A stretch of 64,000 nt of DNA from Verrucomicrobiales bacterium (GTDB lineage Bacteria > Verrucomicrobiota > Verrucomicrobiia > Verrucomicrobiales > DEV007): the NCBI GenBank assembly GCA_029213195.1, contig JARGNI010000004.1, positions 1 to 64,000 of the forward strand, read 5' to 3'. Positions 2,370 to 15,979 of the stretch are shown here, in pieces. Within the stretch, counting starts at the first letter, position 1; each line of letters opens with the position of its first letter. The translations under genes were made by a program, and so were the position numbers. The notes under the pieces are model-generated. The model was not told the origin of the DNA, made no database searches, and worked only from the letters and a program-made list of their open reading frames with translations.

Positions 2370-4769
2370 TTACTTGTTCTGAAAAGTTTGAGAGGTGACG
2401 ACGGCTTCGAGGACGGAGCGTACTCCGTAGTCGTCCTTGGCCGCCTGCGCGACGATGGCATCGAGATCGGATCGATCACTGAAACGAATCAGCGCACCGG
2501 TCGAGTAGGTCAGCAATTGTTTGGCGAGATTCCGAGCGAGGACGTCGGGCTGTTCCCGATAAATGGATTTCCACTCGAGAACATCAGCAAACTCCTTGCC
2601 ATCGGGGGTGACTCCCGAAGGATCGACCTTGGCCGCATTCTTTGCCGTGCCGTACTTGGTTCGCCAGAGTCCCACGGGGTCGTACGACTCCAGGGCAAAA
2701 CCACCTGGGTCGAGCTTCTTGTGGCAGGCCGCGCAATCCATGCTGTTGCGGTGCTTGTCGAGTTGATCGCGAATGCTCACAGCGCCGCGGATATCCGGCT
2801 CGACGGCAGGCACACCCGGTGGCGGTGGTGGGATCTCGATACCGAGAATTCGCTCCGCGACCCAGGTTCCCCGGATCACAGGTGAGGTCGTCGTCCCGTC
2901 GGCAGTGACCTTGAGAACCGCTCCCTGGGTGACGAGACCTCCCCGACGAGGATCTTTCAGCGCAACCTTCTGTAGACCGTTTCCGAGCTTCAACTGCTCG
3001 GGCTTCTCCATGCCATAGAATCGCGAGAGTCGCTCGTTGAGAAAGGAATGATCTGAATGCACGAGATGCTGAACGGGGCGATCTTGGTGGACGAGATCAG
3101 CAAAGAAGGCGCGGGTCTCCGCGATCATCGACTCCTGCACGATGGTGTCGAAGGTCTTGTAGAGGCGTCGATCCGGGACCGTGAAGTTGATCAGGTTCAG
3201 GTTCAGCCACTGATCGGTGAAGCTTTCGACGAATCGCTCCGATTTCGGATCTTCAAGCAGTCGATGGAGCTGCTTCTTGATCACCGAGTCGTCCGATACC
3301 TTTCCTGCCTCCGCGAGGGCGAGCAGCTCCTTGTCGGGAACGGAATTCCAGATCATGTAACTGAGCCGGGTTGCCAGCTCGAAGTCATCCAGTTTCCCGG
3401 GCTTCTCGACGAAGGTGAGAAAACGAGGAGAACAGAGGATGGCGCGATAGGCCGATTTGAGGCCATCGACCCCGGTGCCGCCTTTCTCATCGCGAGCTTC
3501 CATGGCGAGGGCGAGATAGGGAGCGATCTGCTCCTTGCTGACCGGGCTGCGAAACGCTCTCTCGGCAAATCGCTGAATCGTCTGCTCCAGCATTTCGCGG
3601 GTCGCTTTCCTGCCCTCTCGATACGGGGAAATGTCGTCCCAACTGGAAGATCCCAACAGAGCCTTGCGAGTCGCTTTCTGATCACCACCGGGATAGATTC
3701 GCTCCATCGTGATCCCGCTGATCTCGATGCCCTCGTGACCCTCTTTCGTAATGTTGCGATTCTTGTATCCCACATTCCCGCCGCTCGCGCCGCTCCGGGC
3801 TTTTTTCACCGTGGCATCGCTCGGTTTGAACTCGAGCATGTGATCGTCCTCGATCCAGGCTTCGAACTCGAGGTCCCGCTTCTCCCGGGTCGCTTCGACG
3901 ATCCCGATCGAGTAGAGAATGGGCTCGTTCGAGGCGCAGGCTCCCGAACGCAGGGTTCCCCAGGTGACGCCGCGTTTGGAATTGATGGCGCGGACATCGT
4001 GCAACTTGATCCGATACCAGCCCGACTCCGAAACTCGAGTCGCGGGCATACGACCATAAAACTGCAAGGTCATCGGCCAGAAGAGCACGCGCCCCTCGAG
4101 GTCCTGGGGTCCCCGGTAGTTCCCGCCCCGCCAGTTGGCCCGACCGAGCTTCTTGGCCGGGAGTTCCTTTCGATCGGGCTCCGGCTTGTGGTAGGCCTTG
4201 TGAAAGGCATCGCGGAGAGCGTAATCCGCGACTTCGAGATAACGAGCGAGGTTGAAATGGGAAAACTGCTGCCCTTTCGCCACGGTCTCGAATCCGTGAG
4301 TCGCCTGCTCTTCCGGCAACAATGTCTGGAGGGGCAAATCGATCGCGAGAAGGTCATGCACCGAATGCTCGTATTCGGTCCGGGTGAGACGTCGGACCTG
4401 CACCCGTCCCTTTGCCTCCTTGTCAGCCAGGTCTGCGGCAAGCAGGGGGTTCTCGAGGGAAGAAAGAAAGCTCTTGGTGAGCTCTTTGTCGGGCCGGGGC
4501 TCTTCTTCGGGAGGCATCTCCCCTTCCCGAACGCGGTCAAAGACGCGTTGCCAGAGCTCGAAATTCCCATGATCGGAGAGATCCATGGGAAGATCGATCA
4601 GGTTGAGTCCTCCCTTGGTCGTCAAATCGTCATGACACTCGTAGCAGTGCTTCGACAACAGCGTCTCCAATGCGGCACGATCCGATTCTGCTGTCGCCTC
4701 GGAAGGCCCCGAGACAAGAGCGAAAAGCGTTCCCGACGCAAAAATAAGCTGATGGAGTGACTTCGACAT
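2370..4769 (-). CDS. Secreted cytochrome-like protein, PSCyt1-DUF1587-DUF1592-DUF1588-DUF1585
   Basis: 799 residues from the ATG at 4769, which begins a signal peptide (about residues 1-27). The N-terminal PSCyt1 module has a CYECH haem-attachment motif (Cys42, Cys45, His46) followed by GGLNL and GEMPP. Then come the DUF1587 region (around 125-190), DUF1592 (about 430-560), DUF1588 (about 565-690) and DUF1585 at the C-terminus. A second CxxCH, CAACHKKLDPGGFALE, lies at 679-694. Domain names are from family knowledge. Two CxxCH motifs imply covalent haem in the periplasm and hence an electron-transfer role, but no substrate is known. It precedes DUF1552 on the same strand with 28 bp between. 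The sulfatase gene at 4904 is divergent, leaving a 134-bp shared upstream region. Confidence 0.92.
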   Translation of the reverse strand: MSKSLHQLIFASGTLFALVSGPSEATAESDRAALETLLSKHCYECHDDLTTKGGLNLIDLPMDLSDHGNFELWQRVFDRVREGEMPPEEEPRPDKELTKSFLSSLENPLLAADLADKEAKGRVQVRRLTRTEYEHSVHDLLAIDLPLQTLLPEEQATHGFETVAKGQQFSHFNLARYLEVADYALRDAFHKAYHKPEPDRKELPAKKLGRANWRGGNYRGPQDLEGRVLFWPMTLQFYGRMPATRVSESGWYRIKLHDVRAINSKRGVTWGTLRSGACASNEPILYSIGIVEATREKRDLEFEAWIEDDHMLEFKPSDATVKKARSGASGGNVGYKNRNITKEGHEGIEISGITMERIYPGGDQKATRKALLGSSSWDDISPYREGRKATREMLEQTIQRFAERAFRSPVSKEQIAPYLALAMEARDEKGGTGVDGLKSAYRAILCSPRFLTFVEKPGKLDDFELATRLSYMIWNSVPDKELLALAEAGKVSDDSVIKKQLHRLLEDPKSERFVESFTDQWLNLNLINFTVPDRRLYKTFDTIVQESMIAETRAFFADLVHQDRPVQHLVHSDHSFLNERLSRFYGMEKPEQLKLGNGLQKVALKDPRRGGLVTQGAVLKVTADGTTTSPVIRGTWVAERILGIEIPPPPPGVPAVEPDIRGAVSIRDQLDKHRNSMDCAACHKKLDPGGFALESYDPVGLWRTKYGTAKNAAKVDPSGVTPDGKEFADVLEWKSIYREQPDVLARNLAKQLLTYSTGALIRFSDRSDLDAIVAQAAKDDYGVRSVLEAVVTSQTFQNK

Positions 4770-11354: not shown

Positions 11355-12852
11355 GCGATTCGTCATTTGTCTCTTTCCCCTGCTCTTCCTCACTCTCGCA
11401 ATTTCCGCCGGAGAAGGAAAGCCGAACGTCATCGTGATCCTCGCCGACGATCTTGGGGTCATGGACACCTCGCTGCGGGATCCTCTTTTCTACGAGACCC
11501 CTGCCCTGGAGAAACTCGCCAGCGAGGGCGTACGATTTCTCAACGGGTATTGCGCTCATCCGCGTTGCGTTCCCTCCCGCTATGCTCTCCAGACGGGTCG
11601 GTTTCCGGCCCGGGATTCTCTCAACTCCGGCCCAACCGGTCCGGCCATGGCCAAGCGCAAGACCATCGCCCAGGCCTTTCGCTCCCAGGGATACGCCACC
11701 TTCTTTGCGGGAAAATGGCACCTTGGGAAAGAAGAATCCGAGTGGCCTCACGAAGTCGGATACAACGTGAACATCGGAGGATGTCACGCTGGAGCGCCGG
11801 GCAGCTACTTCTTTCCCTGGCACATCACTCGACCCGCCGGCAAGGAGAGTTCCTACGGCCCGCTCTACCAATTGGAGAAAGGAAAGCCGGACGAACACAT
11901 CACCGAGCGTCTCACCAAGGAAACCGAGAAGTGGGTCGAGCGGCAGGTGAAAAAAGAGCAGCCCTTCTTCGCGTTCCTGTCTCACTACGCCGTCCATACC
12001 CCCATCGAAGGAAAACCCGACGAAGTCGAAGCGTTCACCGAGAAGTTGGAAAAAATCGATCGCGACTCGGGACCCGCCTACCTGGCTCGGGACGGGCAAA
12101 CCAAGCAGTATCGCGACGACCCTCGATACGCCTCCATGATCAAGACCATGGATGAGAGCGTCGGTCAGGTCCTTGCATTCGTCGAGCGGCTCGGCATCCG
12201 GGAGAATACCATCATCGCCTTCACCTCGGATCACGGCGGGCTCTCGAATCGAGGGACCGAAAGCAATCGGGGAGTCGCCACCAGCAACGAGCCCTTTCGG
12301 GCTGGCAAAGGCCATCTCTACGAGGGGGGGCTCCGCGTCCCTTTTCTCATTTCCTGGCCGGGGAAACTCGAAGCCGGAAAGGAGCTGGAGACCGTGGCCG
12401 TAGGGACCGACCTCTATCCAACTCTCCTGGATCTCGCCGGGCTGGAGCTGTTTCCGAAAGCGCACGCGAGTGGCACCAGTCTCGCTCCCGCCCTGCGGGG
12501 AGAAGAGTTCACAAGAGAGAAACCTCTGATCTTCCACAGCCCGCTTCCTCGTCCGACCCAGACCGGGGACTCGGCCGCTTCGGCGATCCGAGTCGGAGAC
12601 TGGAAGCTCATCAAGACCTACTTCCCGGAATCTCTCGAGCTCTATCACCTCAAGGACGATCCGTATGAAAGAAACAATCTCGCAGACGAGAAAGCGGAGA
12701 AGGCAGAGACGATGAAAGCCCGGCTCGAGGCCAACCTGATCCGATGGGGAGCGATGCCGCCCCGAAAGGATTGGAAAAAGAAGGACGTCACCGCTCCGCT
12801 CTCGTCGAAATCGAAAGGTTCCGAGCCGCGGAGCGACGAAGAAAAGCCATGA
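11353..12852 (+). CDS. Secreted sulfatase (GalNAc-6-sulfatase-like)
   Basis: 499 residues. ATG at 11353 begins a signal peptide (MRFVICLFPLLFLTLAISAG); the TTG at 11341 upstream would only add MFFL. Metal ligands in ILADDLGVMD (Asp32, Asp33), formylglycine motif CVPSR at 72-76 within AHPRCVPSRYALQTGRFPAR, GKWHLGKEESEW, and TSDHGGLSNRG. The layout resembles the N-acetylgalactosamine-6-sulfatase-like branch. The C-terminus is long, basic and serine-rich and is not needed for the fold. The stop codon overlaps the next start as ATGA at 12849-12852, which points to translational coupling with the peroxiredoxin-like gene. It shares its start region with the opposite esterase. Confidence 0.93.
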   Translation: MRFVICLFPLLFLTLAISAGEGKPNVIVILADDLGVMDTSLRDPLFYETPALEKLASEGVRFLNGYCAHPRCVPSRYALQTGRFPARDSLNSGPTGPAMAKRKTIAQAFRSQGYATFFAGKWHLGKEESEWPHEVGYNVNIGGCHAGAPGSYFFPWHITRPAGKESSYGPLYQLEKGKPDEHITERLTKETEKWVERQVKKEQPFFAFLSHYAVHTPIEGKPDEVEAFTEKLEKIDRDSGPAYLARDGQTKQYRDDPRYASMIKTMDESVGQVLAFVERLGIRENTIIAFTSDHGGLSNRGTESNRGVATSNEPFRAGKGHLYEGGLRVPFLISWPGKLEAGKELETVAVGTDLYPTLLDLAGLELFPKAHASGTSLAPALRGEEFTREKPLIFHSPLPRPTQTGDSAASAIRVGDWKLIKTYFPESLELYHLKDDPYERNNLADEKAEKAETMKARLEANLIRWGAMPPRKDWKKKDVTAPLSSKSKGSEPRSDEEKP

Positions 12853-13520
12853 CCGACCCTGAACCGGAATCGACTGATTCTTCGCTCCGCGAACGCATTG
12901 ATGCCTGGTCTCGCGATCACGCCAGCGACTTCCCGGAAGAGGTCCAGAACCTCTTTGCGAGAAAAACCGAGGAAGTCCTGCGCTCCGGAATCCTCGACCG
13001 TTGTCTCCAGGAGGGAGATCGGGCACCGGACTTCTCGCTTCCCAGTGTCACCGGAGAAGAAATCCGGCTCAGCGAAATCCTCGAGAAAGGACCCGTCATC
13101 CTCAGCTTCTATCGCGGAACCTGGTGCCCCTACTGCAACCTGGAGTTTGTTTCTCTCCTCGAGGCGATGCCCCAGTTTCAATCCCGCAAGGCCACCGTCC
13201 TCGCCATCAGTCCCCAGATGCGGAATCGGCGCGAGGATCCCGCGATCCTCGGCTTCCACGATCTTTGCGACCATGACAACCGTGTCGCAAAGGAATTCGG
13301 ATTGGTACACGCCGTGGGAGAGGAGATCGAGGAAGTCTATCGGAACTTCGGGATTCAACTGGACCATCTCAACGATTCCACCCAAGGCGAGATCCCCATC
13401 CCAGCCACCTACCTGATCGATCAGGACTACGTCATCCGATACGCCCACGCCAACGCCGACATTGTCGAGCGAGCCGAACCGAGCGAACTGATCGGCAGCC
13501 TTGTCCAGCTCGCGGCATGA
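12849..13520 (+). CDS. Peroxiredoxin-like AhpC/TSA protein
   Basis: 223 residues from the ATG at 12849, inside the ATGA overlap with the sulfatase stop. After an acidic N-terminal helix, the thioredoxin-fold part begins at GDRAPDFSLPSVTGEEIRLS (about 56-75). The redox site FYRGTWCPYC has Cys93 and Cys96, the CxxC form of the peroxiredoxin-like AhpC/TSA family, rather than the single peroxidatic Cys of classical AhpC. No signal peptide, so cytoplasmic. Expected role: thiol-dependent reduction of peroxides or disulfides. Why it is coupled to a secreted sulfatase is unclear; the coupling may be incidental. The reading frame upstream to 12744 overlaps the sulfatase and is not used. Confidence 0.9.
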   Translation: MTDPEPESTDSSLRERIDAWSRDHASDFPEEVQNLFARKTEEVLRSGILDRCLQEGDRAPDFSLPSVTGEEIRLSEILEKGPVILSFYRGTWCPYCNLEFVSLLEAMPQFQSRKATVLAISPQMRNRREDPAILGFHDLCDHDNRVAKEFGLVHAVGEEIEEVYRNFGIQLDHLNDSTQGEIPIPATYLIDQDYVIRYAHANADIVERAEPSELIGSLVQLAA

Positions 13521-13563
13521 GAACATTGCCCGGCCCCCACTCCCTGTGATAGAGATTTCCACG

Positions 13564-14674
13564 ATGGCAGCTACCTCACGAGAGTGCCCGACTGGTGGAA
13601 CACGAATCCCTACCGCGTTTCCCGGCGGCCTGTGCCCATCCTGCATGTTGGCCGGAGTCGTTTCGAATCCACCTTCCGAGACTTCGCTTGAAGAGTCGGG
13701 AGGCAACGAGACCTCCCGGATCGAGGCAAGCGATTCTCCTGCGAGCGAAGCTCGTCCTGCCTCCTTGTCCGGCCCGAGGATGGAAACCATCAAGAGTGCC
13801 TTTCTCCAGTTCGAAAGCCTCACCCGGATCTCCGAGAACCAAGGACACAACATCTACCAGGGCCCACTTCGTTTCGATGGCAGAATCCTGACCCTGCAAT
13901 TGGTCCCCGTCGGGGAAGGAGACGAAGACGAGCTGGACCGAAAAAAACGATCCGTTCTTGGCGTCATCGAAGGCGATTTTCCGGGATGCCCCTCATGGGA
14001 GGATTCGGGCTGGATCGAGATCGATTCGCAGCCCTGCTTCTTTCTCCTGAGCAGTCCTGACACCGCCATATCCCTGGGCAAGTTTCTGCGAGAGGAGCAG
14101 CCCTCTCCTGAACGAGTCATCTCGATTTTTCGGAAACTCGGCGAACGGCTCGCTCCTCTCCACGCGGCGGGATTCGCCCATCTTGCGCTCTCGCCAGACA
14201 CGATTGCGATCTCTTCCGAAGACGTGGTGAGCTTCTCAGCCCAGGGGATAGGAGAACGATCGGCTCGACTTCTCAACGGTCATCTTCGGAAAGGCTTCGA
14301 CGCTACCTCTCCCTACCTCGCCCCGGAGTCCTGGGAGGAAACCGCATCAGGAGATACCCGAGCCATATGTCTTCGCCCTCGGAACGCTCTTCTACGAAGC
14401 GATTTCGGGAACTCCTCCCGGGGGAATTCCCGAGCCCCTGTCCAGTTTTCTCCCGGAAGAGTGGCACGACCTCGATACTCTTGTCTTTCGAACGATGGAA
14501 CGAGATCCGGAGAAGCGTCCATCGGTTTCCGAGATCATCGAGCGTCTCGCGCCCAAGCTTCCCGATCCGGAGCCCATTTCCCTGTCTTCTCCGAACGCGT
14601 CGCCTCCCTACCTTCTTTGGGCCCTGGGAGGGATGATCATTGCCGGAATCCTGCTGATCTGGATTTTTCGATGA
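13564..14674 (+). pseudogene. Frameshifted zinc-ribbon pseudokinase with C-terminal membrane anchor
   Basis: ATG at 13564. The N-terminus has an imperfect zinc-ribbon (CPTGGTRIPTAFPGGLCPSC) like that fused to verrucomicrobial Ser/Thr kinases. A kinase-like N-lobe follows up to YLAPESWEETASG. The first frame then loses homology, while the third frame picks it up from about 14352: EIPEPYVFALGTLFYEAISG, then MERDPEKRPSVSEIIERL, a proline-rich linker and a transmembrane helix ending IWIFR, stop at 14672-14674. One extra base near 14350-14351 reconciles the frames. The catalytic loop reads HLALSPDTI where HRDLKPxN is expected, so the catalytic Asp is missing; the N-lobe Lys (LTLQLVPV) and DFG (SFSAQGIG) are absent too. 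It was a pseudokinase even before the shift. A sequencing error is possible. Confidence 0.75.
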
Positions 14675-14782
14675 GCCACCCCTCGGGAAGTTCGTTCACA
14701 TGTCGAAAGGGAAACCTCTCCGTTTCTCTGAAAGGCCGAAACCTTCGCATCGTCGAACTCCCTCATTCGTAACCAGATTCCC

Positions 14783-15979
14783 ATGAGATCCGAAAACCAC
14801 CAGTTCCCCAACAGCCAGGGCCACCAACTTGCGGCTCGGCTCGACCTTCCCGGTGTCGGGAAACCGCGAGCCTACCTGCTGTTCGCGCACTGCTTCACCT
14901 GCGGAAAGGATCTCAAGGCGGTCCGCTCCATCTCGGAGGCTCTCACCGATCTCGGCATCGCCGTTTTCCGTTTCGATTTTCCGGGCCTGGGACAAAGCGA
15001 AGGTGAATTCTCCGATTCGACCTTCAGCTCGAACGTCGACGATCTTTATCGTGCCGCGCTCTACCTCGAGGAAATCGCCGAAGGACCCCAGATCCTGATC
15101 GGTCACTCCCTCGGGGGAGCCGCGGTTCTCCGGGCCGCTCCGCTCATCGAATCCGTCCGTGCCGTCGCCACGATCGGTGCTCCTTCCGATCCGGTCCATG
15201 TCACCCATCTCCTCGCCGGGAAACTCGACGAGATCCGGGAAAAGGGGGAAGCCACCGTTTCGCTTGCTCGACGCGAGTTTCTCATCAGGCAGGAGTTCGT
15301 CGACGATCTCGAAAAGGTCTCGACCGAAGACGCCGCCGGAAAGCTTCGGGAAGCCCTTCTCATACTCCACTCTCCCGTCGACGAAATCGTCGGCATCGAC
15401 AACGCCGGTCGCATCTACGATCGCGCGAAGCACCCCAAGAGCTTCGTCTCTCTCGATGACGCCGACCACCTCCTGACTCGGGAAGCCGATGCCCACTATG
15501 CCGCCCGCACCATCGCCGCCTGGGCCGAGCGATACCTCACCCCGGAAACCACGGATGCGGAACACGGCGACACCGTGGTGCGTCTCCATGGAAAAGGATT
15601 CCGGGCCGATGTCTGGACCGGGGGCCACCGTCTCGTCGCCGATGAACCGGCCTCCATCGGGGGCACCGATGCCGGGCCGGCTCCCTATGATTTTCTCCTT
15701 TCCAGTCTCGGCACCTGCACGGCCATGACCCTGCGGATGTATGCCGATCACAAGAAGTGGCCGCTCCAGTCCGTCGAGGTTCGGCTTCGGCACGACAAGC
15801 GGGATGAAACCGACGAAGCCGGGAAGAAGGTTCGGAAGGACACCATCGAGCGGGAGATCCTCGTCGAGGGAAACCTCGACGAAGAACAGCGAAACCGCCT
15901 TCTCGAGATCGCCGACAAGTGCCCGGTCCATCGCAGCCTCGAGTCCAAGGTCGAAGTCAGCTCGAAATTGGTTTCCTAG
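14783..15979 (+). CDS. Alpha/beta-hydrolase fused to OsmC-family peroxidase
   Basis: 398 residues, two enzymes in one chain. Residues 1-250 are an alpha/beta-hydrolase: LLFAHCFTCGKDLKA, FDFPGLGQSEG, the nucleophile elbow GHSLGG (Ser109) and a late His in DDADHLL (His229). Residues 262-398 are an OsmC/Ohr-type domain with Cys312 in SSLGTCTAMTLRMYADHKKW and Cys380 in DKCPVHRSLESKV, the two redox cysteines of the family. This bifunctional fusion is known in several bacterial groups. The OsmC half should reduce organic hydroperoxides; the hydrolase half may release or process an ester substrate. No signal peptide, so cytoplasmic. It follows the pseudokinase after 108 bp in which I see no gene. 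Confidence 0.92.
   Translation: MRSENHQFPNSQGHQLAARLDLPGVGKPRAYLLFAHCFTCGKDLKAVRSISEALTDLGIAVFRFDFPGLGQSEGEFSDSTFSSNVDDLYRAALYLEEIAEGPQILIGHSLGGAAVLRAAPLIESVRAVATIGAPSDPVHVTHLLAGKLDEIREKGEATVSLARREFLIRQEFVDDLEKVSTEDAAGKLREALLILHSPVDEIVGIDNAGRIYDRAKHPKSFVSLDDADHLLTREADAHYAARTIAAWAERYLTPETTDAEHGDTVVRLHGKGFRADVWTGGHRLVADEPASIGGTDAGPAPYDFLLSSLGTCTAMTLRMYADHKKWPLQSVEVRLRHDKRDETDEAGKKVRKDTIEREILVEGNLDEEQRNRLLEIADKCPVHRSLESKVEVSSKLVS

Follow-up and report, generated by a model that had tools for sequence, protein, structure and literature searches.

A frame-split pseudokinase gene related to zinc-ribbon Hanks-type kinases in a draft Verrucomicrobiales genome

Organization of the locus

The window, i.e., the whole stretch of 64,000 nt analysed here (G000:C81:1-64000), belongs to the draft genome of a Verrucomicrobiales bacterium, which comprises 5.91 Mb in 115 contigs and is 95.4% complete. 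The nearest named matches of one neighbouring gene are to Verrucomicrobiales metagenome bins, with 75% and 74% identity. The gene of interest is flanked by those encoding an AhpC/TSA-family protein (12744–13520) and an alpha/beta-hydrolase + OsmC fusion (14783–15979). The AhpC-family frame (from 12744) and a sulfatase frame (to 12852) share up to 109 nt. The codon-usage HMM fuses these two frames, and thus the AhpC start may be located later than the first ATG.

Between these genes, frame 1 of the + strand, on which all of the parts of this gene are located, extends from an ATG at 13564 to a stop codon at 14770–14772 and encodes 402 amino acids (full ORF, 13501–14772). The kinase-like coding sequence is distributed over two frames, with the first 267 codons in frame 1 and the last 102 in frame 2. 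The N-part (13564–14364, frame 1; 267 aa) includes a degenerate zinc ribbon, a linker, the N-lobe, and the first half of the C-lobe, and aligns to zinc-ribbon kinases. The frame junction (14362–14368) falls at the codon for the conserved helix-F Asp, as placed by the ends of the homology matches, the codon HMM, and the alignment. The C-part (14369–14674, frame 2), which matches kinase C-lobes, contains the remainder of the C-lobe (VFALGTLFYEAISG ... DPEKRPS), a linker and a single hydrophobic helix, and is terminated by the stop codon at 14672–14674. This helix (LLWALGGMIIAGILLIWIF; 14612–14668, frame 2) is likely to be a C-terminal membrane anchor, its best 19-residue Kyte-Doolittle mean being 2.46 as compared with 0.36 for the out-of-frame tail of about 135 amino acids (14369–14772, frame 1; codon score -27.3) to which the N-part is now joined.

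Relationship to zinc-ribbon Hanks-type kinases

The alignment set consisted of 13 relatives, hand-picked among the matches obtained in searches with the N- and C-pieces. The motifs VA(L/I)K, HRDIKP and DFG are conserved in all 13 relatives, while the window protein keeps none of them. Strand beta3 reads LTLQL where the relatives have VA(L/I)K (13888–13902), with loss of the ATP-binding Lys; the catalytic loop reads HLALSP instead of HRDIKP (14179–14196), with loss of the catalytic Asp; and SAQGIG replaces (A/V)DFG (14236–14253), with loss of the metal-binding Asp. Furthermore, the helix-F Asp, present in 13/13 relatives, is a Tyr at the junction codon of the window gene, and the segment from DFG to APE has 22 residues, as against 24–28 in the relatives. 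An earlier sequence-only reading had noted that the catalytic Asp, the N-lobe Lys and DFG were missing, and had concluded that kinase activity was absent already before the break. The alignment bears out both statements (HRD to HLA, VALK to LTLQ, DFG to AQG), all three motifs being lost relative to 13/13 relatives. HxDxKxxN is conserved at its Asp, Lys and Asn in 29/29 loci from the N-piece search (L022–L050), and HRD is present in 7/7 order-level loci (L217–L223, sequence as printed). The window protein therefore lacks each of the residues that define an active kinase (catalytic Lys, HRD Asp, and DFG Asp). With kinase homology over both pieces and all three motifs lost, it is classed, from its sequence, as a bacterial pseudokinase, and is a degenerate version of the zinc-ribbon kinases of Hanks type.

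The zinc-ribbon-like motif (aa 8–27; 13585–13644) departs from the CxxC...CxxC pattern in that the second Cys, present in 13/13 relatives, is replaced by Gly; all four Cys are found in 12 of the 13 relatives, the remaining one being without two others. A zinc ribbon, a kinase-fold core and a C-terminal anchor had previously been proposed. The kinase-like core and the membrane helix are upheld, but the ribbon retains only three of its four Cys.

Zinc-ribbon Ser/Thr kinases of Hanks type from this order (e.g., the own-genome paralogue G000:C20 = L042, and loci L022, L023, and L217) likewise have an N-terminal zinc ribbon, a kinase domain and a hydrophobic helix. In contrast to the frame-broken window gene, the 13 aligned relatives have kept the Lys/HRD/DFG residues. 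The joined window protein aligns to L217 over residues 4–318 of 369 (E value 5e-33), and 38 of the 39 non-self matches of the N-piece lie in open frames of 529–1868 aa, the other being in a frame of 90 aa. Over the domain, the window protein has 20–26% identity with the 13 relatives, which share 42–78% identity among themselves (78 pairs). The matches at an E value of 1.7e-8 or better in the N-piece search and those of the order scan have 24–30% identity, and higher values in the N-piece search were found in short segments only, i.e., 49% over 45 residues (zinc ribbon), 46% over 35, 33% over 89, and 31% over 64. In Pfam, the pieces taken apart gave 10.5 bits to PF00069 (Pkinase) for one piece and no match for the other, while the joined protein scored 28.9 bits to PF00069 (cut-off 31.7) and 23.8 bits to PF07714 (PK_Tyr_Ser-Thr; cut-off 23.1).

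A role as an anti-phage kinase was considered and rejected. The NCBIfam scores were 10.9–14.2 bits against cut-offs of 125–460, and PADLOC, which states no cut-offs, gave at most 18.3 bits (best E value 3e-4) to several kinase models; we read the matches in both collections as general kinase resemblance.

A single net frame change at the helix-F codon

One net one-base frame change at approximately 14362–14368 splits the pseudokinase gene, as confirmed by two independent localisations of a single change. The first is provided by the ends of the homology matches. In the N-piece search, 26 of 39 non-self rows end at query residue 264–267 and none of the 39 extends beyond 267; in the C-piece search, 39 of 47 non-self rows start at C-piece residue 12–14, the best match to kinase C-lobes having 36% identity (E value 6.1e-9). 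In the own-genome paralogue (G000:C20), the N- and C-piece matches abut with zero gap (3275–4135, then 4136–4432). The second localisation comes from the codon-usage HMM, which was trained on unshifted genes of the source genome, had no homology input, and indicated a +1 change at 14364 under all 3 penalties tried.

The codon scores of the two parts are +1.4 in frame 1 for the N-part (-53 and -67 in the other frames) and +16.9 in frame 2 for the C-part (-21 in frame 1). The latter value, divided over 102 codons, corresponds to 0.17 per codon and is within the range of 0.07–0.27 found for 12 of 13 own-genome frames scored. The codon bias of the N-part is weak, about 0.005 per codon vs 0.17–0.33 for the 16 training genes of the window, which could mean a foreign origin or a longer decay. 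In frame 1, scores are poor for the first 180 nt, which comprise the zinc ribbon and the linker. Frame 1 is not the best frame for the first 120 nt, being outscored by frame 0 at 13560–13679, and the codon HMM starts the gene at 13645, with exclusion of the zinc ribbon. The proposed start at 13564 is taken solely from homology.

The sequence-only reading had assigned the kinase-like C-lobe and the membrane helix to a different frame from that of the zinc ribbon and N-lobe, and had ascribed this to a single one-base frameshift; match ends and codon HMM agree with both points. The switch had been placed near 14350 and the extra base had been given as a G. The same two lines of evidence relocate the switch to approximately 14362–14368, and nothing was found to support G. 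Slippage at the run of seven A residues at 13941–13947, inside the pseudokinase frame, was also considered. Read back from the junction, frame 2 stays open for just 117 nt and is closed between this run and the junction, so that slippage at the run would not lead into the C-part in frame 2.

Distribution among relatives

No close orthologue was found in the relatives, in 33 genomes of the genus, in 386 genomes of the order, or in a scan of the GTDB collection, which reaches close relatives only and may not include the source genome itself. With the own genome counted, matches at an E value of 1e-3 were present in 20 of the 56 relatives and in 13 of the 33 genomes of the genus, and matches at 1e-8 in 14 of 386 order genomes; the order scan was limited to 6 candidates per genome, of which those at 1e-8 or better were listed, and weak ones may be missed. 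The intact orthologues suggested earlier as a check did not appear, the proteins recovered being active kinases (24–30% identity in the stronger matches specified above). Neither piece matched at seven loci of 7 kb each that hold the best matches of the neighbours in other members of the genus (4 of 6 non-self hydrolase–OsmC matches and 3 of 20 non-self AhpC matches). The lack of a match beside the counterparts of the neighbours is to be expected if the gene is dispensable. Within the genomes sampled, the source genome alone carries the gene.

Age of the break and competing explanations

The break looks recent, because both parts are stop-free despite an identity of only 20–26% to the active relatives, and there is no second break in about 370 codons. 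In a neutral simulation, limited to substitutions and starting from the own-genome paralogue, all 40 runs had acquired at least one stop at identities of 50%, 35% or 26%, and at 70% there were 2 of 40 without any; by 26% identity the mean was 8.9 stops in 260 codons. This suggests that the sequence remained coding for most of the time over which it diverged, and that the only break was a late event. A stop-free frame is, however, no proof of selection after the loss of catalysis, since some of the divergence may predate that loss, when the protein was an active kinase. The two stop-free parts and the single break are in keeping with the earlier proposal of a recent mutation or an assembly error.

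Between these two, we consider it probable, with moderate confidence, that an orphan pseudokinase with a tail anchor has been inactivated through a single recent indel. In the proposed course of events, the ancestor would have been a zinc-ribbon, membrane-anchored Hanks-type kinase of the same order. Its descendant would have lost the catalytic residues together with one of the zinc ligands, as well as the long region found downstream of the membrane helix in the relatives. Selection may have kept the frame open for a while, giving a short tail-anchored pseudokinase that probably bound its active paralogues in a non-catalytic role, as a scaffold or decoy. Inactivation would then have followed from one small indel of recent date at the helix-F codon, presumably in the cell rather than in the assembly. 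The present product of 402 amino acids would contain half of the C-lobe, without helices F–I and without the anchor, and would probably be unstable.

An error of assembly or sequencing, with an uninterrupted orphan tail-anchored pseudokinase gene in the cell, is possible but not likely. It would account for two stop-free parts and a single break, and the genome is a draft in 115 contigs. Its frequency elsewhere was assessed by applying the codon HMM to 464 kb, made up of the window and 20 stretches of 20 kb. Shift calls numbered 45, 27 and 21 at the lax, middle and strict penalties, respectively; the 27 calls of the middle penalty formed the inspected set, and the extra calls of the lax penalty, which lie outside it, may include real breaks. 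Thirteen of the 27 were dropped, 11 being within 160 nt of the end of a stretch and 2 within about 10 nt of the end of a gene. In 11 of the 14 calls inspected, an upstream stop within 51 nt is accompanied by a next-frame start within about 60 nt, and we read these as overlapping gene pairs; 2 others (L131) lie on either side of a GGRGDGG-type repeat. This leaves the window gene as the sole call of the 14 explained neither by gene overlap nor by a repeat. At the middle penalty, the HMM detected 120 of 150 artificial single-base indels placed at least 300 nt from gene ends. The assembly is, therefore, not error-ridden. There is also no homopolymer of 4 or more at 14340–14400, and it would be a coincidence for a lone error to strike a degenerate gene known from a single genome. 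A recent loss of function is the likelier of the two explanations, and programmed recoding is very unlikely.

If the frame is intact in the cell, active zinc-ribbon kinases would once more have given rise independently to a membrane-anchored pseudokinase, in this case in a little-studied phylum. The fuller claim joins an assembly error to an intact pseudokinase, tail-anchored and of independent origin from zinc-ribbon Hanks kinases, which was kept by selection while the triad, the zinc site and the C-terminal domain were lost, in a Verrucomicrobiales lineage outside the families treated in the review PMC12599244; we regard it as rather unlikely. Most likely the case is an ordinary one, i.e., a gene that died recently (or one slip in the assembly). 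As such it provides a clear example of an orphan pseudokinase apparently being lost, and cautions against reading a scaffold into a broken gene known from a single genome.

A long-dead pseudogene in neutral decay, of which the frameshift would be one scar of several, appears quite improbable. The loss of a zinc Cys and of all the catalytic motifs would fit such a history, as would the weak codon bias of the N-part, which is worst over the first 180 nt, but the kinase C-lobe motifs are still recognisable and neither part contains a stop codon, where neutral drift to 26% identity would have introduced a mean of 8.9 per 260 codons. The least likely of the readings weighed is programmed recoding, in which a ribosomal frame change would yield the anchored form and the unshifted form would be soluble: frame 1 is indeed open for 408 nt beyond the junction, and a rare ATA codon (the second rarest sense codon) is located there, but there is no slippery run (no run of 4 or more at 14340–14400), the site is without a stop codon, the RNA fold is no stronger than those of shuffled sequences (z -0.03), and Rfam gave no match. 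The absence of a close orthologue from 386 order genomes means that no conserved two-frame arrangement is seen, and two-frame orthologues with a slippery site, which the sequence-only reading had named as evidence against its proposal, did not turn up.

Comparison with other pseudokinases

Among bacterial pseudokinases, EssB/YukC and ActPs3/MviN, from Firmicutes and actinobacteria, are described in the review PMC12599244 as proteins with a transmembrane region and with scaffolding roles in which the three catalytic motifs have all degenerated, and with activation loops that are reduced or carry a hallmark deletion. By description, the window protein resembles them in its degenerate motifs and membrane region; it differs in its activation loop, where the segment has 22 residues vs 24–28 in its relatives. 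The main text of that review contains none of the terms Verrucomicrob-, Planctomycet- or zinc. Among the literature matches listed, no title refers to Verrucomicrobia or to zinc-ribbon pseudokinases, and, judged by title, PMC12599244 alone deals with bacterial pseudokinase families. By analogy with EssB/YukC and MviN, the protein was, before the break, probably tethered to the membrane and bound to active paralogues in a non-catalytic role. The scaffold or receptor role proposed from the sequence is a putative one; no partner, operon or orthologue was found in its support.

In the source genome, three further kinase-like proteins with matches to PF00069 are without the catalytic Asp, namely L016 (HRL; G000:C89:184122-184499; open frame of 794 aa), L017 (HGH; G000:C57:31877-32656; 827 aa), and L019 (HGG; G000:C89:47975-48529; 969 aa). 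None has a significant match to the window gene, from which they differ in that their frames are open and that no zinc ribbon was found by pattern in the stretches examined. These three are apparently intact pseudokinases, and pseudokinases are thus not rare in this genome.

Two other loci are of related interest. A 90-aa open frame (L116:2824-2964; G006:C77:116323-116463) contains a zinc ribbon with 61% identity over 31 residues to that of the window protein, and its match to the N-piece is confined to this element. In another genome, an active zinc-ribbon kinase (L219; G214:C105:6501-7352) has an apparent frame break, its 359-aa frame departing, as read by eye, from kinase homology in the C-lobe.
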